From: Membranipora membranacea | Taxonomy: Eukaryota; Bryozoa; Gymnolaemata; Cheilostomatida; Membraniporidae | Length of the DNA: 64,000 nt | NCBI GenBank assembly: GCA_914767715.1 | Contig: OU612069.1 | Coordinates: 9,359,387 to 9,423,386, forward strand | Direction: 5' to 3' | In this document: positions 27,001 through 49,322 of the stretch, piece by piece | Layout of the letters: each line of letters begins with the position of its first letter | Numbering within the stretch: the stretch's first letter is position 1 | Position numbers and translations under genes: made by a program | Notes under the pieces: model-generated | Databases searched by the model: none | What the model saw: only the letters and a program-made list of their open reading frames with translations | What the model was told of the DNA's origin: nothing

Positions 27001-30000
27001 TATGCCAGCCACAAAAGAAGTTTTTCGCTATATAATTTATATGAATTTTGGCCTTTTCGAGATGTGGAGATAACTCGGGTTCACAAAATTACCTTATATG
27101 CCCTGAGTACAACAACCCAAACAGGGAAAACTCAAGAGAAAACTTGGATTCTGTCCTCAACGAGGAGGCAACTTCTGGTAACATCGAGAGAATTTGTCAT
27201 TCACAGCTAAAGCAGGTGAATAGAATGCTATGAGTAGATTTAAATTTATTTAATATACACTTCATTCATGATCAATGTACCAATGTACAACATAAAGATC
27301 ATGTTTACAATAAGTGAAAAATTAAAAAATAATGTGGTCAGTCAATGGGTAAAGAGGAAAAAATTGAATATCAGTTGATCTGAGCTTTGAAAGCCTGCAT
27401 TAATCATGGATACAAAGTTTCTGTTACATACTTTACCATTACATTTGAGATCTAAAGATGTTCAGTTCATTCAAAACCTTACTATTCGACCATATATTAT
27501 CGACTTGACCAACATCATTGATGGTATTATTCCTTTCTGTTTCTTTTATTTAATTTTAAAATTATTTTTTTCTGGCACTGAGTGCAAAACATTTCGAATG
27601 AGATGACTTTGGTTGTCAATAAATGTATAAATATATGTATATATATACGTTTATTGACAACCAGTCCAAAAACCATTATATTTATTCATATCATGTTCAA
27701 TATATATATATATATATATATATATGTATAAATATATTGAACATGATATGAATAAAGATAATGGTTATTTTTGTAGTAAGACTCGTCAATATACCTCTAT
27801 CTGAACTCTTCTTTTTCCTCTCTTCTCTACTTTAATATTTTAGTTATATTATATTACATTTTATTCTTATTTTTATTTCATTTAGTTTATTGAGGTGGCG
27901 CGGAGTCTCACAGTAACATTTCCAGAAGATGTGAAGTCATATTTAGCTAGGTTTTACCTGGCTAGTCGACAAGTACGCAGTGAGATCGGGAATGCTATTC
28001 CAACTTCCTCTCTCAAAACTATGTGAGCTTTTCTCTTACTCCAGTTAAATTTTTATAAAGAAAACCTTAGTGTATCTAGTTAAAAATTGAACAAGTTCTC
28101 AATTTAATTTTTTCTTATTTTCAGATGAGGTTTTGTTGTCAAACCAATGAACTCACTCATTGGTCAAACAATTACCTATTTTTTGAAGCTATCCGCCATC
28201 TCAGTAAACAGGATTTAATCAGTCTAATTGAATAAACTGACAATGAAAATAGGATAGTCCGGCACATAAACTGCTGTTTGTTGTAAAATATAAATCCTTC
28301 CGACTTTTTTATTGATACTTAAAAATCAAAAGGAAACTCAATCATATCGCCTCAAATATGGTCCATACCCATGTTACCTAAATTAGCCTGCTAACCCTGA
28401 TAATTATAACATTATTCATTATATCAGAGTATCTATATTATATAAATATATATATATATAACTCAGTGCTGTGTTGTAATTACATAAGTATATAGAGCAG
28501 ACTGGCAGACAGAAACCAAACTTTATCATGATTTCTTGATGCAGCTGTGTATACAGTATATTATAGGGATGTTTGATCTTAGATAATTGTTACTTGGCAA
28601 TGAGTTCACCTTCCTCAATTATTATAGGCTGTTAGCATATCAAATTGTTGTTATTTAATGCATCATGAGTCATGTATGCATCTTTTAACCTAGCAAATAA
28701 TGTCAGGAGTGGTAATTGTCCTCTCTCCTGTCATGGGGACATAACTTTTGACTTCGATTCATGATAGGATTTTTTGTTCATGATGCGTACTAGTTTTTAG
28801 CAAGTATATACATACAAGCAACACAACGACATCTGAATATCAGATTTGGAATTTCAAGTTAATGTTGAATGCATATAAATCCTTGTTCATAATTTCGTTT
28901 TTAAATGTGAATAATTATATTTATATGAATGTAATAGTTATGGATAAAAAGTATGAATTTTTTTATCATACTTTATGCAGGCATTTATTCTTTTGTGGAT
29001 TCGATGATGTTGTTTTATTAGCTGTTTATCTTTTTATATTCTCATACTTATGATTAAAATTCTCCACAGGTTATCTTTAGCGGAGGCCCACACACGACAC
29101 TCACTGCGATCTGTGGTGACCCAAGAGGATGCCCTTTCTGCTATACTCCTCTATGAGGAATGTGTGACATCACAGACCCATCACTCTGTGCTGAACGTCA
29201 CACATGAGCCTCACTGGAACCCGTCTACTGTACAATACTATCTAACACAACAGGTAAGGGGGGGAGGTCTCACATGAGCCTCACTGTAACCCGTCTACTG
29301 TACAATACTATCTAACACAACAGGTAAGGGGGGGAGGTCACACATGAGCCTCACTGGAACACATCTACTGTGCAATACTATCTAACACAACAGGTAAGAG
29401 GGGGGAGGTCACACATGAGCCTCACTGGAACCCGTCTACTGTACAATACTATCTAACACAACAGGTAAGGGGGGGAGGTCTCACATGAGCCTCACTGGAA
29501 CCCGTCTACTGTACAATACTATCTAACACAACAGGTAAGAGGGGGAGGTCTCACATGAGCCTCACTGGGACCCGTCTACTGTACAATACTATCTAACGCA
29601 ACAGGTAAGAGGGGGAGGTCTCACATAAGCCTCACTAGAACCCGTCTACTGTACAATACTATCTAACACAACAGGTAAGAGGGGGAGGTCTCACATAAGC
29701 CTCACTAGAACCCGTCTACTGTACAATACTATCTAACACAACAGGTAAGAGGGGAGCAGGTCACACATGAGCCTCACTGGAACCCGTCTACTGTACAATA
29801 CTATATAACACAACAGGTAAGAGGGGGGAGGTCTCACATGAGCCTCACTAGAACCCGTCTACTGTACAATACTATCTAACACAACAGGTAAGAGGGGGAG
29901 GTCACACATGAGCCTCACTGGAACCTGTCTACTGTACAATACTATCTAACACAACAGGTAAGAGGGGAGGTCTCACATGAGCCTCACTGGAACCCGTCTG

Positions 30001-36000: not shown

Positions 36001-39000
36001 AAGAGGAGGGAGGTCTCACATGAGCCTCACTGGAACCCGTCTACTGTACAATACTATCTAACACAACAGGTAAGAGGGGGAGGTAACACATGAGCCTCAC
36101 TGTAACCTGTCTACTGTACAATACTATCTAACACAACAGGTAAGAGGGGGAGGTCACACATGAGCCTCACTGGAACCTGTCTACTGTACAATACTATCTA
36201 ACACAACAGGTAAGGGGGGGGAGGTCACACATGAGCCTCACTGTAACCTGTCTACTGTACAATACTATCTAACACAGCAGGTAAGGGGGGGAGGTCACAC
36301 ATGAGCCTCACTGGAACTTGTCTACTGTACAATACTATCTAACACAACAGGTAAGGGGGGGGGAGGTAACACATGAGCCTCACTGTAACCCGTCTACTGT
36401 ACAATACTATCTAACACAACAGGTAAGGGGGGGGAGGTAACACATGAGCCTCACTGGAACCCGTCTACTGTACAATACTATCTAACACAACAGGTAAGAG
36501 GGGGAGGTAACACATGAGCCTCACTGGAACCCGTCTACTGTACAATACTATCTAACACAACAGGTAAGGGGGGGAGGTAACACATGAGCCTCACTGGAAC
36601 CCGTCTACTGTACAATACTATCTAACACAACAGGTAAGAGGGGGAGGTCTCACATGAGCCTCACTGTAACCTGTCTACTGTACAATACTATCTAACACAA
36701 CAGGTAAGAGGAGGGATGTCTCACATGAGCCTCACTGGAACCTGTCTACTGTACAATACTATCTAACACAACAGGTAAGGGGGGGAGGTCACACATGAGC
36801 CTCACTGGAACCCGTCTACTGTACAATACTATCTAACACAACAGGTAAGAGGGGGAGGTCACACATGAGCCTCACTGTGACCCATCTACTGTACAATACT
36901 ATCTAACACAACAGGTAAGGGGGGGAGGTCACACATGAGCCTCACTGGAACCCGTCTACTGTCCAATACTATCTAACACAACAGGTAAGAGGAGGGAGGT
37001 CTCACATGAGCCTCACTGGAACCCGTCTACTGTACAATACTATCTAACACAACAGGTAAGAGGGGGAGGTAACACATGAGCCTCACTGTAACCCGTCTAC
37101 TGTACAATACTATCTAACACAACAGGTAAGAGGAGGAGGTAACACATGAGCCTCACTGGAACCCGTCTACTGTACAATACTATCTAACACAACAGGTAAG
37201 AGGGGGAGGTCACACATGAGCCTCACTGGAACCTGTCTACTGTACAATACTATCTAACACAACAGGTAAGGGGGGGAGGTCACACATGAGCCTCACTGTA
37301 ACCTGTCTACTGTACAATACTATCTAACACAACAGGTAAGAGGGGGAGGTCACACATGAGCCTCACTGGAACCTGTCTACTGTACAATACTATCTAACAC
37401 AACAGGTAAGGGGGGGAGGTCACACATGAGCCTCACTGTAACCTGTCTACTGTACAATACTATCTAACACAACAGGTAAGAGGGGGAGGTCACACATGAG
37501 CCTCACTGGAACCTGTCTACTGTACAATACTATCTAACACAACAGGTAAGAGGGGGAGGTAACACATGAGCCTCACTGGAACCCGTCTACTGTACAATAC
37601 TATCTAACACAACAGGTAAGAGGGGGAGGTCTCACATGAGCCTCACTGTAACCTGTCTACTGTACAATACTATCTAACACAACAGGTAAGAGGGGGAGGT
37701 AACACATGAGCCTCACTAGAACCCGTCTACTGTACAATACTATCTAACACAACAGGTAAGGGGGGGAGGTAACACATGAGCCTCACTGGAACCCGTCTAC
37801 TGTACAATACTATCTAACACAACAGGTAAGAGGGGGAGGTCTCACATGAGCCTCACTGTAACCCATCTACTGTACAATACTATCTAACACAACAGGTAAG
37901 GGGGGGAGGTCACACATGAGCCTCACTGTAACCTGTCTACTGTACAATACTATCTAACACAACAGGTAAGAGGGGGAGGTAACACATGAGCCTCACTGGA
38001 ACCCGTCTACTGTACAATACTATCTAACACAACAGGTAAGGGGGGGAGGTAACACATGAGCCTCACTGGAACCCGTCTACTGTACAATACTATCTAACAC
38101 AACAGGTAAGAGGGGGAGGTCTCACATGAGCCTCACTGTAACCCATCTACTGTACAATACTATCTAACACAACAGGTAAGGGGGGGGAGGTCACACATGA
38201 GCCTCACTGGAACCCATCTACTGTACAATACTATCTAACACAACAGGTAAGGGGGGGAGGTAACACATGAGCCTCACTGGAACCCGTCTACTGTACAATA
38301 CTATCTAACACAACAGGTAAGGGGGGGAGGTAACACATGAGCCTCACTGGAACCCGTCTACTGTACAATACTATCTAACACAACAGGTAAGAGGGGGAGG
38401 TCACACATGAGCCTCACTGTAACCCGTCTACTGTACAATACTATCTAACACAACAGGTAAGAGGGGGAGGTAACACATGAGCCTCACTGTAACCCGTCTA
38501 CTGCACAATACTATCTAACACAACAGGTAAGAGGGGGGAGGTCTCACATGAGCCTCACTGGAACCCGTCTACTGTACAATACTATCTAACACAACAGGTA
38601 AGAGGGGGAGGTAACACATGAGCCTCACTGGAACCCGTCTACTGTACAATACTATCTAACACAACAGGTAAGAGGGGGAGGTCTCACATGAGCCTCACTG
38701 GAACCCGTCTACTGTACAATACTATCTAACACAACAGGTAAGAGGGGGAGGTCTCACATGAGCCTCACTGTAACCCATCTACTGTACAATACTATCTAAC
38801 ACAACAGGTAAGGGGGGGAGGTCACACATGAGCCTCACTGGAACCCGTCTACTGTACTATACTATCTAACACAACAGGTAAGAGGGGGAGGTCTCACATG
38901 AGCCTCACTGGAACCCGTCTACTGTACTATACTATCTAACACAACAGGTAAGGGGGGGGAGGTCACACATGAGCCTCACTGGAACCCGTCTACTGTACAA

Positions 39001-42000
39001 TACTATCTAACACAACAGGTAAGGGGGGGAGGTCACACATGAGCGTCACTGGAACCCGTCTACTGTACAATACTATCTAACACAACAGGTAAGGGGGGGA
39101 GGTATCACATGAGCCTCACTGGAACCCGTCTACTGTACAATACTATCTAACACAACAGGTAAGAGGGGGAGGTCACACATGAGCCTCACTGGAACCCGTC
39201 TACTGTACAATACTATCTAACACAACAGGTAAGGGGGGGGAGGTCACACATGAGCGTCACTGGAACCCGTCTACTGTACAATACTATCTAACACAACAGG
39301 TAAGGGGGGGAGGTCTCACATGAGCCTCACTGGAACCCGTCTACTGTACAATACTATCTAACACAACAGGTAAGGGGGGGGAGGTCACACATGAGCGTCA
39401 CTGGAACCCGTCTACTGTACAATACTATCTAACACAACAGGTAAGGGGGGGAGGTAACACATGAGCCTCACTGGAACCCGTCTACTGTACAATACTATCT
39501 AACACAGCAGGTAAGAGGGGGAGGTCCCACATGAGCCTCACTGGAACCCGTCTACTGTACAATACTTTCTAACACAACAGGTAAGAGGGGGAGGTAACAC
39601 ATGAGCCTCACTGGAACCCGTCTACTGTACAATACTATCTAACACAACAGGTAAGGGGGGGGAGGTCTCACATGAGCCTCACTGGAACCCGTCTACTATA
39701 CAATACTATCTAACACAACAGGTAAGGGGGGGAGGTAACACATGAGCCTCACTGTAACCTGTCTACTGTACAATACTATCTAACACAACAGGTAAGAGGG
39801 GGAGGTCTCACATGAGCCTCACTGTAACCCGTCTACTGTACAATACTATCTAACACAACAGGTAAGAGGGGGAGGTCCCACATGAGCCTCACTGGAACCC
39901 GTCTACTGTACAATACTATCTAACACAACAGGTAAGGGGGGGAGGTATCACATGAGCCTCACTGGAACCCGTCTACTGTACAATACTATCTAACACAACA
40001 GGTAAGAGGGGGAGGTCACACATGAGCCTCACTGGAACCCGTCTACTATACAATACTATCTAACACAACAGGTAAGGGGGGGAGGTAACACATGAGCCTC
40101 ACTGGAACCCGTCTACTATACAATACTATCTAACACAACAGGTAAGGGGGGGAGGTAACACATGAGCCTCACTGTAACCTGTCTACTGTACAATACTATC
40201 TAACACAACAGGTAAGAGGGGGAGGTCTCACATGAGCCTCACTGTAACCCGTCTACTGTACAATACTATCTAACACAACAGGTAAGAGGGGGAGGTAACA
40301 CATGAGCCTCACTGGAACCCGTCTACTGTACAATACTATCTAACACAACAGGTAAGGGGGGGAGGTATCACATGAGCCTCACTGGAACCCGTCTACTGTA
40401 CAATACTATCTAACACAACAGGTAAGAGGGGGAGGTCACACATGAGCCTCACTGGAACCCGTCTACTATACAATACTATCTAACACAACAGGTAAGGGGG
40501 GGAGGTAACACATGAGCCTCACTGTAACCTGTCTACTGTACAATACTATCTAACACAACAGGTAAGAGGGGGAGGTCTCACATGAGCCTCACTGTAACCC
40601 GTCTACTGTACAATACTATCTAACACAACAGGTAAGAGGGGGAGGTAACACATGAGCCTCACTGGAACCCGTCTACTGTACAATACTATCTAACACAACA
40701 GGTAAGGGGGGGAGGTAACACATGAGCCTCACTGTAACCCGTCTACTGTACAATACTATCTAACACAACAGGTAAGGGGGGGAGGTAACACATGAGCCTC
40801 ACTGTAACCTGTCTACTGTACAATACTATCTAACACAACAGGTAAGGGGGGAGGTCTCACATGAGCCTCACTGGAACACGTCTGCTGTACAATACTATCT
40901 AACACAACAGGTAAGAGGGGGAGGTCTCACATGAGCCTCACTGTAACCCGTCTACTGTACAATACTATCTAACACAACAGGTAAGAGGGGGAGGTAACAC
41001 ATGAGCCTCACTGGAACCCGTCTACTGTACAATACTATCTAACACAACAGGTAAGAGGGGGAGGTCTCACATGAGCCTCACTGGAACCCGTCTACTGTAC
41101 AATACTATCTAACACAACAGGTAAGAGGGGGAGGTCTCACATGAGCCTCACTGTAACCCGTCTACTGTACAATACTATCTAACACAACAGGTAAGAGGGG
41201 GAGGTCACACATGAGCCTCACTGGAACCCGTCTACTGTACAATACTATCTAACACAACAGGTAAGGGGGGGAGGTCTCACATGAGCCTCACTGGAACCCG
41301 TCTACTGTACAATACTATCTAACACAACAGGTAAGAGGGGGAGGTAACACATGAGCCTCACTGGAACCCGTCTACTGTACAATACTATCTAACACAACAG
41401 GTAAGAGGGGGAGGTCTCACATGAGCCTCACTGTAACCCGTCTACTGTACAATACTATCTAACACAACAGGTAAGAGGGGGAGGTCTCACATGAGCCTCA
41501 CTGGAACCCGTCTACTTTACAATACTATCTAACACAACAGGTAAGGGGAGGTCTCACATGAGCCTCACTGGAACCCGTCTACTGTACAATACTATCTAAC
41601 ACAACAGGTAAGGGGAGAGGTCTCACATGAGCCTCACTGGAACCCGTCTACTGTACAATACTATCTAACACAACAGGTAAGGGGAGAGGTCTCACATGAG
41701 CCTCACTGTAACCCGTCTACTGTACAATACTATCTAACACAACAGGTAAGGGGAGGAGGTCTCACATGAGCCTCACTGGAACCCGTCTACTGTACAATAC
41801 TATCTAACACAACAGGTAAGGGGGGGAGGTAACACATGAGCCTCACTGGAACCCGTCTACTGTACAATACTATCTAACACAACAGGTAAGAGGGGGAGGT
41901 CTCACATGAGCCTCACTGTAACCCATCTACTGTACAATACTATCTAACACAACAGGTAAGGGGGGGAGGTCACACATGAGCCTCACTGGAACCCGTCTAC

Positions 42001-45000
42001 TGTACTATACTATCTAACACAACAGGTAAGAGGGGGAGGTCTCACATGAGCCTCACTGGAACCCGTCTACTGTACTATACTATCTAACACAACAGGTAAG
42101 GGGGGGGAGGTCACACATGAGCCTCACTGGAACCCGTCTACTGTACAATACTATCTAACACAACAGGTAAGGGGGGGAGGTCACACATGAGCGTCACTGG
42201 AACCCGTCTACTGTACAATACTATCTAACACAACAGGTAAGGGGGGGAGGTATCACATGAGCCTCACTGGAACCCGTCTACTGTACAATACTATCTAACA
42301 CAACAGGTAAGAGGGGGAGGTCACACATGAGCCTCACTGGAACCCGTCTACTGTACAATACTATCTAACACAACAGGTAAGGGGGGGGAGGTCACACATG
42401 AGCGTCACTGGAACCCGTCTACTGTACAATACTATCTAACACAACAGGTAAGGGGGGGAGGTCTCACATGAGCCTCACTGGAACCCGTCTACTGTACAAT
42501 ACTATCTAACACAACAGGTAAGGGGGGGGAGGTCACACATGAGCGTCACTGGAACCCGTCTACTGTACAATACTATCTAACACAACAGGTAAGGGGGGGA
42601 GGTAACACATGAGCCTCACTGGAACCCGTCTACTGTACAATACTATCTAACACAGCAGGTAAGAGGGGGAGGTCCCACATGAGCCTCACTGGAACCCGTC
42701 TACTGTACAATACTTTCTAACACAACAGGTAAGAGGGGGAGGTAACACATGAGCCTCACTGGAACCCGTCTACTGTACAATACTATCTAACACAACAGGT
42801 AAGGGGGGGGAGGTCTCACATGAGCCTCACTGGAACCCGTCTACTATACAATACTATCTAACACAACAGGTAAGGGGGGGAGGTAACACATGAGCCTCAC
42901 TGTAACCTGTCTACTGTACAATACTATCTAACACAACAGGTAAGAGGGGGAGGTCTCACATGAGCCTCACTGTAACCCGTCTACTGTACAATACTATCTA
43001 ACACAACAGGTAAGAGGGGGAGGTCCCACATGAGCCTCACTGGAACCCGTCTACTGTACAATACTATCTAACACAACAGGTAAGGGGGGGAGGTATCACA
43101 TGAGCCTCACTGGAACCCGTCTACTGTACAATACTATCTAACACAACAGGTAAGAGGGGGAGGTCACACATGAGCCTCACTGGAACCCGTCTACTATACA
43201 ATACTATCTAACACAACAGGTAAGGGGGGGAGGTAACACATGAGCCTCACTGGAACCCGTCTACTATACAATACTATCTAACACAACAGGTAAGGGGGGG
43301 AGGTAACACATGAGCCTCACTGTAACCTGTCTACTGTACAATACTATCTAACACAACAGGTAAGAGGGGGAGGTCTCACATGAGCCTCACTGTAACCCGT
43401 CTACTGTACAATACTATCTAACACAACAGGTAAGAGGGGGAGGTAACACATGAGCCTCACTGGAACCCGTCTACTGTACAATACTATCTAACACAACAGG
43501 TAAGGGGGGGAGGTATCACATGAGCCTCACTGGAACCCGTCTACTGTACAATACTATCTAACACAACAGGTAAGAGGGGGAGGTCACACATGAGCCTCAC
43601 TGGAACCCGTCTACTATACAATACTATCTAACACAACAGGTAAGGGGGGGAGGTAACACATGAGCCTCACTGTAACCTGTCTACTGTACAATACTATCTA
43701 ACACAACAGGTAAGAGGGGGAGGTCTCACATGAGCCTCACTGTAACCCGTCTACTGTACAATACTATCTAACACAACAGGTAAGAGGGGGAGGTAACACA
43801 TGAGCCTCACTGGAACCCGTCTACTGTACAATACTATCTAACACAACAGGTAAGGGGGGGAGGTAACACATGAGCCTCACTGTAACCCGTCTACTGTACA
43901 ATACTATCTAACACAACAGGTAAGGGGGGGAGGTAACACATGAGCCTCACTGTAACCTGTCTACTGTACAATACTATCTAACACAACAGGTAAGGGGGGA
44001 GGTCTCACATGAGCCTCACTGGAACACGTCTGCTGTACAATACTATCTAACACAACAGGTAAGAGGGGGAGGTCTCACATGAGCCTCACTGTAACCCGTC
44101 TACTGTACAATACTATCTAACACAACAGGTAAGAGGGGGAGGTAACACATGAGCCTCACTGGAACCCGTCTACTGTACAATACTATCTAACACAACAGGT
44201 AAGAGGGGGAGGTCTCACATGAGCCTCACTGGAACCCGTCTACTGTACAATACTATCTAACACAACAGGTAAGAGGGGGAGGTCTCACATGAGCCTCACT
44301 GTAACCCGTCTACTGTACAATACTATCTAACACAACAGGTAAGAGGGGGAGGTCACACATGAGCCTCACTGGAACCCGTCTACTGTACAATACTATCTAA
44401 CACAACAGGTAAGGGGGGGAGGTCTCACATGAGCCTCACTGGAACCCGTCTACTGTACAATACTATCTAACACAACAGGTAAGAGGGGGAGGTAACACAT
44501 GAGCCTCACTGGAACCCGTCTACTGTACAATACTATCTAACACAACAGGTAAGAGGGGGAGGTCTCACATGAGCCTCACTGTAACCCGTCTACTGTACAA
44601 TACTATCTAACACAACAGGTAAGAGGGGGAGGTCTCACATGAGCCTCACTGGAACCCGTCTACTTTACAATACTATCTAACACAACAGGTAAGGGGAGGT
44701 CTCACATGAGCCTCACTGGAACCCGTCTACTGTACAATACTATCTAACACAACAGGTAAGGGGAGAGGTCTCACATGAGCCTCACTGGAACCCGTCTACT
44801 GTACAATACTATCTAACACAACAGGTAAGGGGAGAGGTCTCACATGAGCCTCACTGTAACCCGTCTACTGTACAATACTATCTAACACAACAGGTAAGGG
44901 GAGGAGGTCTCACATGAGCCTCACTGTAACCCGTCTACTGTACAATACTATCTAACACAACAGGTAAGGGGAGGAGGTCTCACATGAGCCTCACTGGAAC

Positions 45001-48000
45001 CCTTCTACTGTACAATACTATCTAACACAACATGTAAGGGGAGAGGTCTCACATGAGCCTCACTGTAACCCGTCTACTGTACAATACTATCTAACACAAC
45101 AGGTAAGGGGAGGAGGTCTCACATGAGCCTCACTGTAACCCGTCTACTGTACAATACTATCTAACACAACAGGTAAGGGGAGGAGGTCTCACATGAGCCT
45201 CACTGGAACCCTTCTACTGTACAATACTATCTAACACAACATGTAAGGGGAGAGGTCTCACATGGGCCTCACTGGAACCCGTCTACTGTACAATACTATC
45301 TAACACAACAGGTAAGGGGAGAGGTCTCACATGAGCCTCACTGGAACACGTCTACTGTACAATACTATCTAACACAACAGGTAAGAGGGGGGAGGTCACA
45401 CATGAGCCTCACTGGAACCCATCTACTGTACAATACTATCTAACACAACAGGTAAGAGGGGGGAGGTCTCACACGAGCCTCACTGTAACCCATCTACTGT
45501 ACAATACTATCTAACACAACAGGTAAGAGGGGGGGGGGGTCTCACATGAGCCTCACTGGAACCCGTCTACTGTACAATACTATCTAACACAACAGGTAAG
45601 GGGGGAGGTCTCACATGAGCCTCACTGGAACCCGTCTACTGTACAATACTATCTAACACAACAGGTAAGGGGGGAGGTCTCACATGAGCCTCACTGTAAC
45701 CTGTCTACTGTACAATACTATCTAACACAACAGGTAAGGGGGGAGGTCTCACATGAGCCTCACTGGAACCCGTCTACTGTACAATACTATCTAACACAAC
45801 AGGTAAGGGTAGAGGTCTCACATGAGCCTCACTGTAACCCGTCTACCGTACAATACTATCTAACACAACAGGTAAGGGGAGGAGGTCTCACATGAGCCTC
45901 ACTGGAACCCTTCTACTGTACAATACTATCTAACACAACATGTAAGGGGAGAGGTCTCACATGAGCCTCACTGTAACCCGTCTACTGTACAATACTATCT
46001 AACACAACAGGTAAGGGGAGGAGGTCTCACATGAGCCTCACTGTAACCCGTCTACTGTACAATACTATCTAACACAACAGGTAAGGGGAGGAGGTCTCAC
46101 ATGAGCCTCACTGGAACCCTTCTACTGTACAATACTATATAACACAACATGTAAGGGGAGAGGTCTCACATGAGCCTCACTGGAACCCGTCTACTGTACA
46201 ATACTATCTAACACAACAGGTAAGGGGAGAGGTCTCACATGAGCCTCACTGGAACACGTCTACTGTACAATACTATCTAACACAACAGGTAAGAGGGGGG
46301 AGGTCACACATGAGCCTCACTGGAACCCATCTACTGTACAATACTATCTAACACAACAGGTAAGAGGGGGGAGGCCTCACACGAGCCTCACTGTAACCCA
46401 TCTACTGTACAATACTATCTAACACAACAGGTAAGAGGGGGGGGGGTCTCACATGAGCCTCACTGGAACCCGTCTACTGTACAATACTATCTAACACAAC
46501 AGGTAAGGGGGGAGGTCTCACATGAGCCTCACTGGAACCCGTCTACTGTACAATACTATCTAACACAACAGGTAAGGGGGGAGGTCTCACATGAGCCTCA
46601 CTGTAACCTGTCTACTGTACAATACTATCTAACACAACAGGTAAGGGGGGAGGTCTCACATGAGCCTCACTGGAACCCGTCTACTGTACAATACTATCTA
46701 ACACAACAGGTAAGGGGGGAGAGGTCACACATGAGCCTCACTGGAACCCATCTACTGTACAATACTATCTAACACAACAGGTACGAGGGAGAGGTCACAC
46801 ATGAGCCTCACTGGAACCCGTCTACCGTACAATACTATCTAACACAACAGGTAAGAGGGAGGGGTCTCACATGAGCCTCACTGGAACCCGTCTACTGTAC
46901 AATACTATCTAACACAACAGGTAAGGGGGGAGGTCTCACATGAGCCTCACTGGAACCCGTCTACTGTACAATACTATCTAACACAACAGGTAAGGGGGGA
47001 GGTCTCACATGAGCCTCACTGGAACCCGTCTACTGTACAATACTATCTAACACAATAGGTAAGGGGGGAGAGGTCTCACATGAGCCTCACTGGAACCCGT
47101 CTACTGTACAATACTATCTAACACAACAGGTACGAGGGAGAGGTCACACATGAGCCTCACTGGAACCCGTCTACTGTACAATACTATCTAACACAACAGG
47201 TAAGAGGGGGAGGTCACAAATGAGCCTCACTGGAACCCGTCTACTGTACAATACTATCTAACACAACAGGTAAGGGGGGGAGGTCTCACATGAGCCTCAC
47301 TGGAACCCGTCTACTGTACAATACTATCTAACACAACAGGTACGAGGGAGAGGTCACACATGAGCCTCACTGGAACCCTTCTACTGTACAATACTATCTA
47401 ACACAACAGGTACGGGGGGGGAGCTCACACATGAGCCTCACTGGAACCCGTCTACTGTACAATACTATCTAACACAATAGGTAAGGGGGGAGAGGTCACA
47501 CATGAGCCTCACTGGAACCCGTCTACTGTACAATACTATCTAACACAACAGGTACGAGGGAGAGGTCACACATGAGCCTCACTGGAACCCGTCTACTGTA
47601 CAATACTATCTAACACAACAGGTAAGAGGGGGAGGTCACAAATGAGCCTCACTGGAACCCGTCTACTGTACAATACTATCTAATACAACAGGTAAGAGGG
47701 GGAGGTCTCACATGAGCCTCACTAGAACCCGTCTACTGTACAATACTATCTGACACAACAGGTTAGAGGGGGGTCTCACATGAGCCCCACTGGAACACGT
47801 CTACTGTACAATACTATCTAACACAACAGGTAAGAGAGGGAGGTCACACATGAGCCTCACTGGAACCCGTCTACTGTACAATAATATCTAACACAACAGG
47901 TAAGGGGGGGAGGTCTCACATGAGCCTCACTGGAACATGTCTACTGTACAATACTCTCTACCACAACAGGTAAGGGGGGGGGGGTTCTCACATGAGCCTC

Positions 48001-48892
48001 ACTGGAACCCGTCTACTGTACAATACTATCTAACCCAACAGGTAGGGGGGGGGGGATGTCATCTGCCTTTTTGTGAGGAGAGAGGATTTGAAGTTCATAA
48101 GTTTTCGGATGGAGGTTTGGAGCCTGTTTAGAACTGAGGACAGAGTGGAGAGGTTTGTGACGGGCAGGCGTCAGCTCCCGTATGAGGATCAAATCTAAGG
48201 ATTGTGAGCTAGGATAATGAGGGATTTGTGATTTTATTATGTGAAGATTATGGATTTGAGTGGTATAATCACCTGCCAGGGAATTGGTTCCTCCAGAGGT
48301 GTGGGATCGAGTCCCATGGGACATTCCTTGATTTGTCATCCCAGCCTCAGACACCCTTTGGTGTAGTTGCTTCCAGTTGAACTCTTCCAGTTGTTGTTAG
48401 GGCTGTACTATCACCTCCCGTAATCGCCGGGGGGGGGGGGCCTTTATTGTGTATAGAAACAATGATTTTGAGAACAAAATAGTTGTGTTGTTGAGAATTA
48501 ACCACACTATTAGAATGATATTATCACATAACAGTAATCGTAATCTTTCTCTGGAACAAATATGTGTCTGATTGATTGATTGTTTACATACAATTACAAA
48601 ATCATGACAAGGATGATTAAGAATTGTATGCATGTGACAGCTCTCATTGTAACTCAGTTATCCATGGAATTGTTGTATAAAAGTGACTTAGATGGCATAT
48701 GAAACATGACAATTAGCGGCAAGTCTGCGATGTCTTGTTTTGAGGTAACTGTGATGACATTAAAAGGCCAAATTAATATATGATCATCATTATCATATTG
48801 TTACATTGTAGAATGATGTTGGAATGGAGACTCTGAAAACTCTGGTGGATAACTTCTGTAAGACCCATTGCTCGAGCTCCATCGAAGAATGA
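1..48892 (+). CDS. MCMDC2: MCM domain-containing protein 2 (MCMDC2), multi-exon, 5' partial
   Basis: MCMDC2 is a diverged relative of the MCM helicase subunits; in vertebrates it acts in the nucleus in meiotic recombination. Exons: 1-76, 431-488, 4950-5011 (probable), 5171-5193 (tentative), 5470-5537, 6862-7034, 7980-region exon at 7970-8107, 8792-8895, 9307-9406, 9672-9725, 10525-10601, 11083-11245, 12457-12546, 12850-13030, 14659-14755, 27886-28022, 29070-29253, 48812-48892. Phases match at all junctions from 6862 onward. Domain order follows the family: N-terminal MCM region, a zinc motif (C-x4-C ... C-x2-C) followed by YVRIHIPGAAEQ, OB-fold strands, then a degenerate AAA+ core with Walker A lost (VGQEALIIRR where MCM2-7 have GDPGTGKS) and Walker B altered (VCVVPDINALT), then FYLASRQVRSE and LSLAEAHTRHSLR, which match the MCM lid region. 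One small exon between 5538 and 6861 is missing from my model, and the first exon(s) lie upstream. The identification rests on recalled family sequence, not on a search. Confidence 0.88.
431..488 (+). CDS. MCMDC2: MCMDC2 exon 2
   Basis: Preceded by the acceptor TTCTTTTCTAG and followed by GTGAGT. It codes VSVVPLYIDINILELLDVC and leaves one base of a codon. The pattern is like the first beta strands of the MCM N-terminal domain. Confidence 0.6.
489..1121. other. Intron 2 of MCMDC2, left part
   Basis: No + strand exon seen. TTTATT at about 524 and 645 would read AATAAA on the minus strand and could end the nested minus-strand gene. Confidence 0.4.
1122..3025 (-). CDS. Unidentified nested gene on minus strand, 3' part, three exons
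   Basis: Three minus-strand exons join in phase: 3025-2925 (33 full codons, EESNVDQSEDYSTG ... ESWLASLK), 2340-2182 (53 codons, LKEAKTVASTSKDN ... ADYMHPSM), and 1331-1122 (69 codons plus TGA, SPAQTRVQPPN ... RKKLGV). Splice sites on the minus strand are good: acceptors GTTGCAG, TTGGTAG and CGTTTTAG; donors GTAGAT and GTACAC. The first two pieces are acidic and Ser/Asn-rich. The last contains a Leu-rich, charged helix (NLSQLVNRLQTIVTSRN, then EIEEHNRRLLLINQREQE) that looks like a short coiled coil. Such tails occur at the end of Myb/SANT-like DNA-binding proteins, but no DNA-binding domain is visible here and I do not assign a function. The 5' exons were not found. The gene lies antisense within MCMDC2 intron 2. 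Confidence 0.6.
2044..2151. mobile_element. Foldback element, GATAGCTGGTAGTAG family, copy 1
   Basis: Long inverted repeat: CTCAAACTGTGTCGGGATAG at the left returns as its complement at 2131-2151. Inner arms TTATCAACC/GGTTGATAA also pair, so nearly the whole element folds into one hairpin. Lies in an intron of the nested minus-strand gene. Confidence 0.75.
2501..2540. repeat. Short hairpin
   Basis: TGTCAGCCATAGACTTA is followed after a few bases by TAAGTCTATGG, a short near-perfect inverted repeat. Function unknown. Confidence 0.5.
3270..3400 (-). mobile_element. SINE-like repeat, family A, copy 1 (inverted)
   Basis: On the minus strand it reads GCCAACTTACTCTCAGTTGG, AAGCAGGCCGGAGCG and CCTGGGGACCAAACGG. 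The same order of blocks recurs at 7395-7612 and 53805-53930. The tRNA-like head seen at 7540-7608 is not present here. Confidence 0.6.
4158..4305. repeat. 12-bp minisatellite
   Basis: About 12 imperfect copies of GCGTCTAGCTTT in tandem, more regular at the right. Within MCMDC2 intron 2. Confidence 0.85.
4440..4530. mobile_element. Foldback element, GATAGCTGGTAGTAG family, copy 2
   Basis: GGATAGCTGGTAGTAG at 4450 returns inverted as CTACTACCAGCTATCC at 4501. CCACTTT/AAAGTGG pairs inside. Same terminal sequence as the element at 2044-2151. Confidence 0.75.
4950..5011 (+). CDS. MCMDC2: MCMDC2 exon 3 (probable)
   Basis: The frame that completes the codon left by 431-488 reads E-ILTTGANRSHKRICSMMTYR and ends at a perfect donor, GTAAGT, at 5012. 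The phase fit and an IL...C spacing as in the family support it. The acceptor (GTCAAG) has a weak pyrimidine tract. Confidence 0.5.
5171..5193 (+). CDS. MCMDC2: MCMDC2 23-nt microexon (tentative)
   Basis: Acceptor TTGTCTTGATGTAG precedes it and donor GTAACG follows. Seven codons (MTNLFNV) plus AG, which joins to G of the next exon to give Arg. It is the only short segment I found here with both sites and correct phases, but microexons are easy to misjudge. Confidence 0.3.
5346..5397. repeat. Hairpin with CTTGTCATGCGGCC arms
   Basis: CTTGTCATGCGGCC and GGCCGCATGACAAG flank about 20 bases. In an MCMDC2 intron. Confidence 0.65.
5470..5537 (+). CDS. MCMDC2: MCMDC2 exon with MCM OB-fold signature
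   Basis: Between CCGCCAG and GTAAAA. It codes YTLSDQTLMCQSLAVQGTSVMR; the end resembles the MCM OB-fold motif V-x-V-x-G-T-x-x-R that precedes the zinc finger. It leaves phase 1, whereas the next exon needs phase 2, so a short exon of roughly 25-40 nt is missing between them. Confidence 0.55.
6862..7034 (+). CDS. MCMDC2: MCMDC2 zinc-motif exon
   Basis: Acceptor TTTTCTTGTACTTGACAG and donor GTATTA. Codes QVACYFCPVEGC, GFKYVRIHIPGAAEQ and FTCTVCGAVLREEKSYRRIS. Four Cys (C-x4-C and C-x2-C) form the MCM-type zinc site. This is the most recognisable MCMDC2 exon. A 32-bp minisatellite starts some 25 nt after the donor. Confidence 0.9.
7057..7400. repeat. 32-bp minisatellite just after an MCMDC2 exon
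   Basis: About 10.7 copies of a 32-bp unit containing AGTCTAAGTTAGTCTGATAC and CGGGTATAGTAT. The array begins about 25 nt after the donor of exon 6862-7034. Copies differ by single bases and a CCGGGTATAG/CTGGGGAAAG switch. Confidence 0.9.
7395..7612 (+). mobile_element. SINE-like repeat, family A, copy 2, with tRNA-like end
   Basis: Contains the family blocks (TGCGCCAGGTTGCTCT, GCAGGCAGG, GGTCGGAGCACACC). Its right end, 7540-7608, read on the minus strand, looks like a decayed tRNA: GTTGGTTAGAGCG (A box) and TTCGTGGATTAAAATCC (B box with changes). The inside has expanded as a CAGG microsatellite (about 7447-7490). Confidence 0.6.
7970..8107 (+). CDS. MCMDC2: MCMDC2 exon after zinc motif
   Basis: Acceptor is a T-rich tract ending TTTTTTTTCAG; donor GTGAGA. 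Phase 1 on both sides. Codes DKLILHLNIMNLSKD ... DPGFVRQRMRIVCR, part of the OB-fold insert. Confidence 0.85.
8108..8791. other. MCMDC2 intron without other features
   Basis: 684 bases with no exon, repeat or RNA gene recognised. Confidence 0.4.
8792..8895 (+). CDS. MCMDC2: MCMDC2 OB-fold exon
   Basis: Acceptor TTTCAATATTTCAG, donor GTCTGT. Codes DDQALHSYSIGETVTVTGRL and then VYDNLIPKHPQVYLE, the typical OB strand with a G-x-x-V-x-V-x-G pattern. Ends in phase 0. Confidence 0.88.
9307..9406 (+). CDS. MCMDC2: MCMDC2 exon (linker between OB fold and AAA region)
   Basis: Acceptor TTCCTGTTACAG, donor GTAAGG. Codes ANTVVQHQVEEQANSTKEVD and LSRLPEPIQQLYK. Phase 0 in, phase 1 out. Confidence 0.82.
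9672..9725 (+). CDS. MCMDC2: MCMDC2 exon (start of AAA-like region)
   Basis: Acceptor TTTATTCTTTGTAG, donor GTAAGT. Codes DRRESMWSFALAMAYLVG, equivalent to the helix at the start of the MCM ATPase region. Confidence 0.82.
9726..10524. other. MCMDC2 intron, AT-rich
   Basis: 799 bases. Simple AT-rich tracts and short palindromic TATA stretches only. Confidence 0.4.
10525..10601 (+). CDS. MCMDC2: MCMDC2 exon
   Basis: Acceptor TTTTCTTCTTTGTAG, donor GTGAGT. Codes ECISPAGTFVKLKLSLLLSL then LSPSCN. It corresponds to the P-G-x-x-x-x-K-L-x-L-L-x-S-L stretch of the family. Confidence 0.88.
11083..11245 (+). CDS. MCMDC2: MCMDC2 exon with lost Walker A
   Basis: Acceptor TTCTCTACCCTGTAG, donor GTAATA. 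Starts GLNVLCVGQEALIIRRLLAY. Active MCM proteins have N-[IV]-L-L-V-G-D-P-G-T-[GA]-K-S here; the glycine loop and the Lys-Ser are gone, as expected for MCMDC2, which suggests no ATP hydrolysis at this site. Confidence 0.9.
11246..12456. other. MCMDC2 intron, about 1.2 kb
   Basis: No exon seen. A GATAGATAGATGGATAGATA microsatellite starts at about 11257, and TCTCTGCAGCATAG (about 11538) and CTGTGCTGCAGAGA (about 11701) are partly complementary. Confidence 0.4.
12457..12546 (+). CDS. MCMDC2: MCMDC2 exon with degenerate Walker B
   Basis: Acceptor ATATTTTACAG, donor GTGTGT. Codes GGSSLNAHHSVCVVPDINAL, aligned with the MCM stretch L-E-A-G-A-L-x-L-A-D-G-G-[IV]-C-x-I-D-E-F. The acidic D-E pair is replaced. 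Confidence 0.88.
12850..13030 (+). CDS. MCMDC2: MCMDC2 exon
   Basis: Acceptor TCGCATTTATAG, donor GTGAGT. Codes ALEYGKVLQSVPGCSDYICI, then QCKIWACADSRT, up to NPCYNQ. The W-A-x-A-D position corresponds to the sensor-1 strand of MCM proteins. Confidence 0.88.
13031..14658. other. MCMDC2 intron, about 1.6 kb
   Basis: No exon recognised. A TA dinucleotide tract lies near 13580, and CAAGGAGTTAAAG/CTTTAACTCCTTG is a perfect 13-bp-arm hairpin at 14574-14600. Confidence 0.4.
14659..14755 (+). CDS. MCMDC2: MCMDC2 exon (R-x-FDL-like motif)
   Basis: Acceptor CCTTATTTCCCAG, donor GTAATA. Codes QLFDLVLLTDDLSSDYLEEI then SYHSLLQALCYSR. L-F-D-L-x-L-L-x-D is conserved in MCM ATPase domains just after the arginine finger. 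Ends in phase 0, which fits 27886. Confidence 0.88.
15173..15250. mobile_element. Foldback element family with CTACTACTCAGT, half copy
   Basis: Shares GAGTAGACTAACTAAGAAGT and CTAGCTAGTAACTGTTAGTTA with the complete copy at 18339-18441. Only one arm is kept here. Confidence 0.65.
16472..17485 (+). CDS. Nested gene in MCMDC2 intron: probable membrane protein, three internal exons
   Basis: Exons 16472-16608, 16666-16840 and 17381-17485 join in phase. The first has a strong acceptor (TTTTTTTGTATTTTAG) and codes YIVKQHRPQNSTENST followed by KKRVFGWFIADVIQLVVSIV, a Lys/Arg-flanked hydrophobic segment that looks membrane-spanning. The second codes GTDPERLEMAGVISIDIST and a further hydrophobic stretch (TLASSIVSNIMIYM), then DDNCVGVIVEVSWHKF. 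The third codes NTGERLIQYGMIMAELRIR and FGGLNSVLRNLDVP and ends at GA|GTGAGT. Two NST sequons sit before the first hydrophobic segment. Exon 16666-16840 can also be read through to a stop at 16908. The frame of the third exon is the one that fits phase; another frame is also open, so this part is less sure. I do not recognise the family. Confidence 0.45.
17661..17738. mobile_element. Foldback element
   Basis: CTTCACCTGCTATCTACCTT ... TTAGT and its near-complement AAGGTAGATTGCAGGTGAAG flank a GGTTA centre. Pyrimidine-rich flank (CCCCCCTTCCTCCCTCCC) on the left and purine-rich flank on the right extend the pairing. Confidence 0.75.
18339..18441. mobile_element. Foldback element family with CTACTACTCAGT, complete copy
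   Basis: CTACTCATTCTTCACGACTG ... and CAGTCGTGAAGAATGAGTAG are perfect arms around a TAGAGTAGTACTCTA palindrome; the tail CTAGCTAGTAACTGTTAGTTA is shared with 15173-15250. Confidence 0.75.
20610..21185 (+). CDS. Nested gene in MCMDC2 intron: two 3' exons ending in a stop
   Basis: Exon 20610-20744 codes FSHTLSPTTNNSSFKEAHSA, DALFVTLGTEVVKTPGTN, then TPPPPPK, and ends at AAG|GTATGT. Exon 21030-21185 has a very good acceptor (TTTTTCTTCTTTTCAG) and codes TIIETHGGIERTPVMTHQIC ... SYICAALCCHCTLLNR, then TAG. Phase 0 joins them. The product reads as a Ser/Thr-rich tail ending in a Cys-rich segment, as in cytoplasmic tails of membrane proteins, and it may be the end of the gene at 16472-17485; the link is not shown. 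The start of the first exon is uncertain, and the C13 tract within it is prone to slippage. Confidence 0.4.
21186..22603. other. Intronic stretch with nothing recognised
   Basis: About 1.4 kb, AT-rich, no exon, RNA gene or ordered repeat seen. Confidence 0.35.
22604..24654. mobile_element. 2.05-kb element bounded by 25-bp perfect inverted repeats
   Basis: 22604-22628 begins TTAATCTACGCTCCTTGGGA and is exactly complementary to 24630-24654, which ends TCCCAAGGAGCGTAGATTAA. TTAA at both outer ends would fit piggyBac-type insertion, but a target duplication is not clear. No transposase is visible inside; a minus-strand reading frame of 78 codons (22990-23226) is unconvincing. Probably a non-autonomous DNA transposon, or a chance pair of a dispersed CAAGGAG motif. 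Confidence 0.45.
23732..23783. repeat. Hairpin with 22-bp arms
   Basis: CAAGAGCTGAGCCAGATACA and its near-complement TGTATCGGGCTCAGCTCTTG flank about ten bases. It lies inside the 2.05-kb element. Confidence 0.65.
24755..25079 (-). mobile_element. tRNA-derived SINE-like element with GC hairpins
   Basis: Minus strand 25079-25001 looks like a tRNA: TTAGCTCAGTGTGTAGAGCG (A box) and GGGTTCGAATCCC (perfect B box), with an enlarged anticodon region and no pairing acceptor stem. Downstream on the minus strand (24880-24755) follow three strong palindromes: GGGCGCTTAAGCGCCC, CACGCCGTAGGCGTG and ATCGGGCTCAGCCCGAT. The order tRNA head then structured body is that of a SINE. A functional tRNA is unlikely. 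Confidence 0.6.
25683..27065. repeat. Three diverged copies of a ~350-bp unit
   Basis: Copies near 25690-26040, 26041-26390 and 26680-26990 share GTCCTGAAAATCTGAGGTCT, CAGCAGCATGGCTT, GGTCTGACACCACAAATTTT, GCTGCCCTGCTGCCGGC and related blocks in the same order. A tRNA-like segment lies between the second and third, and its left flank (26398-26480) resembles the right end (26980-27062). Non-coding. Confidence 0.8.
26490..26554 (-). mobile_element. tRNA-like relic inside the ~350-bp repeats
   Basis: Minus strand reads TGTAGCTCAGTGGATAATTC (A-box-like) and GCTCTGGGTTGGAATTGG (B-box-like). Acceptor arms do not pair well, so I read it as a SINE head or pseudo-tRNA. Confidence 0.5.
27611..27662. 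repeat. AT-rich hairpin
   Basis: GGTTGTCAATAAA and TTTATTGACAACC enclose a TATA-rich loop. Confidence 0.6.
27673..27764. repeat. AT-rich cruciform-prone hairpin upstream of an MCMDC2 exon
   Basis: Left arm starts CCATTATATTTATTCATATC and right arm ends GATATGAATAAAGATAATGG; the centre is a long TA tract. It ends 121 bp before exon 27886. Confidence 0.7.
27886..28022 (+). CDS. MCMDC2: MCMDC2 lid-domain exon 1
   Basis: Acceptor TTTTTATTTCATTTAG, donor GTGAGC. Codes FIEVARSLTVTFPEDVKSYL then ARFYLASRQVRSEIG. Y-L-A-S-R-x-x-R is a clear family match. The upstream intron is 13.1 kb. Leaves phase 2, completed by G of 29070. Confidence 0.92.
28023..29069. other. MCMDC2 intron, about 1.05 kb
   Basis: AT-rich, no exon or repeat family recognised apart from a TA tract near 28440. 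Confidence 0.4.
29070..29253 (+). CDS. MCMDC2: MCMDC2 penultimate exon, template of the giant repeat
   Basis: Acceptor ATTCTCCACAG, donor CAG|GTAAGG. Codes LSLAEAHTRHSLRS, EDALSAILLYEEC and ends HEPHWNPSTVQYYLTQQ. The last 57 nt (29197-29253) with the first ~13 nt of the intron are the unit of the downstream array. If the donor is not used the frame runs VRGGGLT and stops at 29275-29277. Confidence 0.93.
30100..31800 (+). repeat. Higher-order repeat with ~914-bp period (13 units)
   Basis: The rare variant CACACAGGAG occurs at 30251 and 31165, and CACAGCAG at 30511, 30865, 31427 and 31781. So a block of about 13 units is present twice in a row, and a 5-unit (354 bp) duplication lies inside each. 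The two blocks differ mainly in G-run length. Confidence 0.85.
35850..37070 (+). repeat. Higher-order repeat with ~986-bp period (14 units)
   Basis: The rare changes GTGACCCATC (about 35891 and 36878) and ACTGTCCAATAC (GTCCAA at 35975 and 36961) recur in the same order 986 bp apart. Confidence 0.75.
38690..41776 (+). repeat. 3.1-kb higher-order repeat, copy 1 (about 44 units)
   Basis: Private variants GTACTATAC (38854), GGTATCACAT (39101), GGTCCCACAT (39523), TACTTTCT and TACTTTAC (41513) all return 3148 bp later. No difference was seen between the copies at the sites compared. Confidence 0.85.
41838..44924 (+). repeat. 3.1-kb higher-order repeat, copy 2
   Basis: Counterpart of 38690-41776 at an offset of 3148 bp (variants at 42002, 42249, 42671 and 44661). 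The near identity suggests a very recent block duplication, or an assembly duplication. Confidence 0.85.
44905..46712 (+). repeat. 908-bp higher-order repeat, two copies
   Basis: The variant donor CATGTAAG occurs at 45031 and 45240 and again at 45939 and 46148, giving a 908-bp block (13 units) with an internal 209-bp (3-unit) step. Blocks cover about 44905-45805 and 45813-46712. Confidence 0.8.
48041..48811. other. Unique intron remnant between the array and the last MCMDC2 exon
   Basis: About 770 bases with a G13-like tract near 48429 and no repeat unit or exon. It supplies the only good 3' splice site after the array (48810-48811). Confidence 0.5.
48812..48892 (+). CDS. MCMDC2: MCMDC2 terminal coding exon
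   Basis: Acceptor CATATTGTTACATTGTAG. Entered in phase 0, it codes NDVGMETLKTLVDNFCKTHC and SSSIEE, then TGA. A short helical, acidic C-terminus is what the family shows after Y-L-T-Q. It is the only exon found after the 19.6 kb intron. Confidence 0.88.
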   Translation, partial: NDVGMETLKTLVDNFCKTHCSSSIEE

Positions 48893-48933
48893 TTTCAAAT
48901 TGGTCGGAATATTTGGAACTTCTCTAAGACATC

Positions 48934-49128
48934 TTGTACAATATTAGAACCTACACCCTGCCTAATATTTAGAGCAAGAAGTATTTATTACTTCGATTGA
49001 GCAGATAACTTCTGCTTTTACATGGGAATTTGCAATAATATTTTGCAGTGTAGGCAGGGAGTGTGGGATACCCTCCCACCCTCCCTGGTGTAGGCAGGGT
49101 GGAGGTTTTGTTCTAATATTGTACAACT
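48934..49128 (+). mobile_element. MITE-like foldback element in the MCMDC2 3' UTR
   Basis: Terminal inverted repeats: 48934-48963 (TTGTACAATATTAGAAC, then CACCCTGCCT) match the reverse complement of 49091-49128. The centre is rich in CCCTCC/GGGAGG and can pair as well. No coding capacity. It lies between the stop codon and the poly(A) signal, so it should be transcribed into the 3' UTR as a hairpin. Confidence 0.7.
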
Positions 49129-49322
49129 GGCCCACATTTAAATACCTTATTCAGTGTTTATATTATTGGTTGGTTGTTTCAGTAATCACAGATACTGTTT
49201 TTATAGCTGCTGTTTAGTTCAGCCAAGCTTAGCTTCAGCTGGCCCTAATGTTATGGTCAGTGAGCATTTAAATTTGTGAATGAACTGCTACTTAGTCATA
49301 ATATGTGTCGGTGGCTAAAGAC

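Follow-up and report, generated by a model that had tools for sequence, protein, structure and literature searches.

A donor-bearing exon-edge minisatellite in the last intron of MCMDC2 copies in the bryozoan Membranipora membranacea

An MCMDC2 gene and the array in its last intron

The window, the whole stretch of 64,000 nucleotides analysed here, was placed by a genome search with the array unit at C5:9359387-9423386 of a 339-Mb assembly. Pieces of it retrieved one relative, an MCMDC2-like protein of the bryozoan Watersipora subatra (P0001), and P0001 used as the query retrieved one further relative, the frog MCMDC2 (P0002). When spliced, the last three exons encode a product identical to P0001 at 82 of 133 residues (62%), and the alignment is continuous over the junction with the last exon, which bears out the assignment of the exon at 29070-29253 to MCMDC2 in an earlier note on this DNA. 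Nine further exon pieces lie upstream on the same strand and span 5470..28022 (Table 1). Membership of the MCMDC2 family rests on homology across several exons; the match to Pfam MCM_lid is weak (15.7 bits, below the cut-off of 27.4). In the mouse, MCMDC2 is reported to be required for meiotic recombination (PMC5070785). A predicted structure of the Watersipora protein had a mean pLDDT of 34 and was set aside, and neither a tRNA nor an Rfam match at gathering thresholds was present in the window. Just 3' of the last exon an inverted repeat, possibly a small mobile element, was spotted by eye at 48930-49140; a search for inverted repeats requiring arms of at least 40 did not list it.

Table 1. 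Features of the MCMDC2 locus, in positions of the window
Feature	Position	Strand	Remarks
Upstream MCMDC2 exon pieces	5470-5574, 6866-7034, 8792-8895, 9307-9406, 10525-10601	+	
Upstream MCMDC2 exon pieces	11083-11245, 12457-12546, 27886-28022	+	
Split MCMDC2 exon, two halves	about 14659-14749 and 27108-27215	+	
12,358-bp insertion splitting a coding exon	14750-27107		Flanked by TAC on either side; ends resemble inverted repeats
Penultimate MCMDC2 coding exon, 184 nt	29070-29253	+	AG of the acceptor up to 29069; GT of the donor from 29254
Donor 1, CAG/GTAAGG	29254-29259	+	Sole donor keeping the conserved C-terminus
Array units 2-269	29254-48041	+	57 nt exon-derived and ~13 nt intron-derived each; inside the last intron
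3,094-bp block, first copy	38685-41778	+	Exact self-match
3,094-bp block, second copy	41833-44926	+	Exact self-match
Remaining last intron	48042-48811	+	Starts GTAGGGGGGGGGGGATGTCATC
Last exon, 26 codons and stop	48812-48892	+	Matches P0001 473-498

The last intron is occupied by a tandem array, which Tandem Repeats Finder delimited as 29197-48052 with a period of 70, 269.0 copies and 94% matches. An independent motif walk found 269 donor-homologous ends at spacings of 66-73 (exactly 70 in 179 of 268), and nearly all of the variation in unit length lies within a G run 3' of the donor. The units of ~70 bp are arranged head-to-tail, each consisting of the last 57 nt of the exon at 29070-29253 followed by ~13 nt of intron. 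Unit 1 is the exon end itself (29197-29253), and units 2-269 form 268 copies within the intron; by unit count the array ends at 48041, as compared with 48052 by Tandem Repeats Finder. A GT follows the exon-like end in all 269 units, and the exact donor sequence CAGGTAAG is found at 254 of the 269 donors, the other 15 differing from it by one base. On these points the description in the earlier note was accurate: the unit has the 57 + ~13 nt composition given there, its figure of ~268 intronic copies is right, CAG/GTAAG is kept in most copies, and hundreds of near-identical donors do face a single acceptor. In the about 45,140 bases of the window beyond the array, the CAGGTAAG 8-mer occurs once on the plus strand and not at all on the minus strand, so that a chance origin of the array donors is excluded.

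The mean pairwise divergence among units is 6.2%, and the GC content is about 47-50% in the array and 33-41% in its flanks. One block of 3,094 bp recurs within the array with zero mismatches at an offset of 45 units (Table 1), from which we conclude that large blocks move within the array. This duplicate is either a recent block amplification or an assembly error, and since the length of the window array is read from the assembly, it marks a spot where the assembly could err. The remainder of the intron (48042 on) and the start of the exon unit (GTCACAC) have the four bases GTCA in common.

At 54 exon-derived positions, the units show 44 variant types, of which 26 are replacement, 14 silent and 4 stop changes, as compared with an unconstrained expectation of about 28.6, 12.0 and 3.4, respectively (computed fractions x 44, with transitions weighted 4:1). 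Of 267 units, 253 have the donor 8-mer unchanged, but equal or better conservation is seen in 15 of the 49 8-mer registers within the exon-derived part. Selection on the array donors or on the 19-codon segments was thus set aside, as the variant types are close to those expected and the donor 8-mer is not specially kept. The array was also rejected as a coding repeat, its 152-aa frame having matched no protein among 2,776 candidates.

Gene copies that share the array

The earlier note attributed the array to one gene, but searching the assembly with the unit uncovered at least six array-bearing copies of MCMDC2. The search returned at least 880 unit matches (a lower bound, 40 of 65 candidates having been scored), all of those among the matches listed being on C5, and the copies (at least six) lie on this same contig and on the same strand within C5:9117000-9513386. 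The array begins at the same exon position in all six copies, c1 to c6, and its size ranges from 6 to 646 counted units among these paralogues of one assembly: 19 units in c1 (14 with an exact donor; the count is a lower bound, a more degenerate unit following), 6 in c2 (5 exact), 6 in c3 (4 exact), 93 in c4 (68 exact), 269 in c5, the window copy (254 exact), and 646 in c6 (597 exact), counted across an assembly gap. This gap of 200 N, at C5:9469479-9469678, is flanked on both sides by an identical block of 6,069 bp, and the array length of c6 is uncertain for these reasons.

In all six copies the 184-nt exon is open, donor 1 reads CAGGTAAG and the last exon is open, with a pooled dN/dS of 0.26 over the last three exons. 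In c6, the copy with the longest array, the frames are open and those true exon borders that were checked have canonical splice dinucleotides. Unit divergence is 0.040-0.054 within arrays and 0.043-0.058 between them (1,038 of 1,039 units). Because these ranges are so similar, the array predates the gene copies, and its presence before the amplification of MCMDC2 is established apart from any mechanism. The exon unit, whose encoded residues are conserved in Watersipora, is identical to the consensus of its own array in four of the six copies (c2, c3, c5 and c6), the window copy being one of them, which makes the exon the likely source of the array. In c1, the exon unit carries three private bases and is 8% off its own array, so that the likeness between the two is not always maintained. 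The similarity among c4, c5 and c6 forms a patchwork that suggests repeated conversion or exchange among MCMDC2 copies.

The window copy is damaged upstream of the array. An exon present in c2, c3 and c6 (N1) is absent from c5; the window offers no collinear equivalent of the c6 segment that holds N1, and N1 was not found in the 50 kb preceding the window. This comparison covers c1 and c4 only to the point where their sequence stops, short of the expected N1 site. Another coding exon, unbroken in all five other copies (c1, c2, c3, c4 and c6), is interrupted in c5 by an insertion (Table 1) whose ends, CTCCAGGG.../CTCAGGG..., are inverted-repeat-like and which looks like a DNA-transposon insertion. 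The last three exons of c5 carry six private changes, four silent and two replacements (A>T and L>H), the latter both in the conserved AHARLSLR stretch; relaxed constraint on these exons is not proven by such changes. If the insertion is not spliced out like an intron, c5 is probably decaying, and its intact last exons may merely reflect how recent the damage is. With one exon missing and another split, c5 is a poor witness for the effect of the array on MCMDC2 output, and since c5 is damaged upstream, the tolerance of many donors by a working gene rests on c6 and c4. Near the site of the missing N1, the window holds a 12-bp tandem array (4160-4302, 11.9 copies), and a family of related direct repeats lies at 25678-27037 within the 12.4-kb insertion.

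Consequences of donor choice

Joined to the last exon, donor 1 gives a product that reads ...YYLTQQNDVGMETLKTLVDNFCKTHCSSSIEE and is alone among the 269 window donors in keeping the conserved C-terminus, while every one of donors 2-269 leads, through seven new residues (VRGGGLT), to one shared stop. The C-terminus is kept by donor 1 only in each of the six gene copies, the stop having been traced for every later donor in c1-c5 and for 339 up to the gap in c6. The proposal that correct splicing needs the donor nearest to the upstream 3' splice site is borne out in this sense, as the correct protein requires donor 1 (1 of 269 donors; 6 of 6 copies). The distance from the premature stop to the last junction would be 46 nt for donor 2 and 116 nt for donor 3. 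The mammalian rule of thumb for decay asks for a stop about 50-55 nt before the last junction, and this rule would expose most later-donor transcripts to decay.

Donor 1 has 8 of 9 matches to CAGGTAAGT, as compared with 5-7 for eight other donors of the gene. It is thus the best of the gene donors checked, and most array copies are equally good. The exon that it delimits is 184 nt long, the other exons being 77-169 nt (one exon that is whole only in other copies has about 196 nt), and use of donor 2 would extend it to 254 nt. Local RNA folding gave donor 1 an unpaired probability of 0.0031 against a mean of 0.0027, with 217 of 268 donors lower; its accessibility is hardly above that of the rest, so that this folding gave no reason for a choice of donor 1. 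In some experiments with competing donors, the intron-proximal donor is reportedly preferred when all are bound by U1, which counts against the use of donor 1. We infer that the spliceosome would nonetheless use donor 1.

Origin of the array, its parallels and other readings

The anatomy of the unit shows that the array was made from the exon. We interpret it as an exon-edge minisatellite, an instance of what has been called exon stuttering, that expanded, was then carried into the gene copies and is tolerated in splicing through donor 1, and we give this reading a probability of about 75%. A short tandem duplication over the exon/intron border would have founded the array by putting the last 57 nt of the exon and the donor at the start of the intron, and the shared GTCA may represent a 4-bp microhomology at the breakpoints of this duplication. 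The array would then have grown and shrunk through block amplification and exchange, and would already have been in place when MCMDC2 was amplified to at least six copies. It could persist if the extra donors are nearly harmless. Donor 1 would be chosen because it is transcribed first, gives an exon of normal length and is paired by exon definition with the upstream 3' splice site, a choice that would hold with five or with several hundred near-identical donors downstream. A later donor brings the early stop and loss of the C-terminus traced above, and such a transcript would probably be wasted through decay. Turnover of the array would rarely break the exon, since in-register exchange is expected to rebuild the same exon-donor junction, and one copy, c6, seems to have arisen through such an exchange within the array.

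The earlier note knew of no named element of this type; two described systems are of the same kind, exon stuttering (PMC12954441) and the VNTR in intron 18 of human ABCA7 (PMC5954066). Exon stuttering, also termed sequence stuttering, was reported for 115 genes of chicken dot chromosomes, in which an exon edge and its splice site are copied through the intron in 1-44 copies per expansion; gerbils are mentioned by the authors with data not shown (PMC12954441). As in the arrays described there, tandem copies of an exon edge bearing a splice donor or acceptor lie in the adjacent intron while the exon is kept. In MCMDC2, the repeat block includes the exon edge and the adjacent splice site, and the intron is filled with local tandem repeats that do not cross into other exons. 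The copied exon part measures 57 nt here and 20-187 bp in chicken (median 36), and the span of 18.9 kb in the window falls within the chicken range of 112-23,555 bp (PMC12954441). The MCMDC2 array differs from the reported chicken stutters in lying in a bryozoan and not in a bird, in being set in AT-rich sequence (flanks 33-41% GC) and not in GC-rich sequence, in its 268 copies as against at most 44, in its very regular 70-bp period and in the amplification of the gene together with the array (PMC12954441). Of the three main features named in the paper, a repetitive intron and the inclusion of exon fragments are shared by MCMDC2; the third is extensive variation in length within the species (PMC12954441), and the variation observed here, 6 to 646 counted units, is between paralogues of a single assembly. 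The association with GC-rich avian dot chromosomes, which does not figure among these three features, is absent here. We regard the MCMDC2 array as an extreme case of exon stuttering with a useful series of paralogues, and it carries the phenomenon from birds into an invertebrate whose genome is AT-rich, with about six times as many copies as the chicken maximum (PMC12954441). Since an AT-rich genome carries this extreme case, we argue that high GC is not required for exon stuttering.

The ABCA7 VNTR consists of 25-bp units, numbering from about 12 to 427 and each beginning with the exon 18 donor, and the canonical donor is the first in the array; according to the same report, retention of one unit amounts to about 2% and is unaffected by array length, while longer alleles show more skipping of the next exon (exon 19) and lower expression (PMC5954066). 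The MCMDC2 array likewise adjoins an exon, with the exon donor as the first GT of the array, every unit carries a donor and hundreds of donors face one acceptor; here, however, the array starts 57 nt upstream of the donor. The ABCA7 array is described as purely intronic, whereas the MCMDC2 units carry exon bases and hence mostly the full CAG/GTAAG; moreover, ABCA7 was measured in people with expression data, whereas the MCMDC2 array is known from genome sequence (PMC5954066). By analogy, ABCA7 would provide the best outside support for the choice of donor 1 (PMC5954066), and by the same analogy its longer alleles suggest that long arrays need not be harmless. A more distant parallel is the tandem duplication of AGGT-containing exon segments, described as a source of introns and exemplified by a fission yeast intron that spans four 24-bp duplicates (PMC4974935). 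There, too, tandem exon copies bear a splice motif, but as described a new intron arises inside an exon from few copies, whereas in MCMDC2 an existing intron was enlarged and none gained (PMC4974935). The miR-137 VNTR was set aside as a comparison, its new donor sites lying in pre-miR sequence by the published description (PMC6692358).

The decoy donors could instead cut MCMDC2 output in proportion to array length through intron retention, exon skipping or late-donor use, in which case the gene family would depend on its short-array copies. We consider this possible, though on balance improbable. The coexistence of 6-unit copies with long-array copies would suit such an effect, as would the lower expression and increased exon 19 skipping with longer ABCA7 VNTRs (PMC5954066) and the report that a neighbouring intron can be retained because of a cryptic donor (PMC8706089). 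Yet c6, with the longest array, keeps its open frames and canonical splice dinucleotides at the borders checked, one-unit retention in ABCA7 was found to be independent of array length (PMC5954066), and cryptic donors elsewhere are described as lacking the retention effect (PMC8706089).

An unlikely alternative is that the array acts on the DNA, supplying every copy with a homologous tract for non-allelic exchange in which each exchange regenerates an intact exon-donor junction, and so helped to amplify and shuffle the MCMDC2 copies. In line with it, c6 differs from c4 by 0.007 and from c5 by 0.052 in the intron before the array, but from c5 by 0.012 and from c4 by 0.053 after it. At sites diagnostic for c4 or c5, c6 sides with c4 by 63:13 upstream and with c5 downstream (17:572, c4:c5), where badly aligned stretches inflate the count but separate comparisons of 600 nt give the same result close to the array. 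Over its first 4-6 array units, c6 resembles c4 at 97-98% and c5 at 91%, as compared with 93.3% on average and 96.6% at most for random 10-unit blocks (of 197). Because these first units are c4-like and the 3' flank is c5-like, the switch from c4 to c5 appears to lie inside the c6 array, and c6 looks like a recombinant joined there. However, the last 4-15 units are no closer to c5 (0.915-0.927) than to c4 (0.921-0.929), and further c4/c5 switches lie upstream in c6, so that exchange is not confined to the array. The gap in c6 also lies within the array, and the switch could thus be a scaffolding join, against which speaks the 6,069-bp exact block that the two sides of the gap have in common. 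The same exon end and donor recur in nearly all units, and unequal exchange anywhere in tens of kilobases would for this reason rebuild a working exon; even so, it seems quite improbable that a junction array both tolerant of splicing and friendly to exchange served as the adapter for the amplification and shuffling of MCMDC2 that produced its six or more copies.

It is also doubtful that the copies are in part an assembly artefact, made of uncollapsed haplotypes or misplaced contigs with inflated arrays, as the 200-N gap in the c6 array with near-collinear identical blocks on either side and the 3,094-bp exact duplicate in the window array might suggest. Divergence between copies in the flanking introns is 3.6-6.4%, the exceptions being c4-c6 on the 5' side of the array and c5-c6 on its 3' side; c4, c5 and c6 follow in order on one contig with a single gap in 204 kb, and the array lengths differ among copies apart from c2 and c3 with 6 units each.

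A recursive splice site has a strong polypyrimidine tract before CAG/GT. Recursive splicing that would remove the intron stepwise, or in-frame 57-nt micro-exons that would add 19-residue repeats, is very improbable, for although the branch-point-like CTAAC occurs 263 times in the array and 57 nt correspond to 19 phase-0 codons, the sites that would have to act as acceptors are poor (with a pyrimidine fraction of 0.50 at CAG/ and of 0.20 at GGGAG/, as compared with 0.56-0.81 at ten acceptors of the gene), stops and replacement changes are about as frequent as expected without constraint, and the array frame, as noted, matched no protein.

The six copies constitute a natural dose series, with counts of 6, 6, 19, 93, 269 and 646 near-identical donors facing the same acceptor in nearly the same gene. 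This series makes it testable within a single animal how the spliceosome picks among equal 5' splice sites, be it by position, by transcription order or by exon length. Short reads would be unsafe for this purpose, as false junctions between repeats are reported to arise with spliced aligners (PMC10632439).

Ten exon queries of the same gene revealed no other stuttering exon, with no copy of E below 0.058 in the window, and one junction query gave a single match (E 0.008) outside the gene on the opposite strand. A 32-bp tandem array at 7054-7398 (10.8 copies) starts 19 nt after the donor at 7035 of this gene, but was rejected as a second exon stutter, because a match to its unit as good as that of the exon junction was also obtained with 416 of 3,000 random windows; repeats related to it occur in c2 and c6. 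Farther downstream, at 55976-56830 on the plus strand, an open frame of 284 aa resembles an NHL-type beta-propeller by eye.
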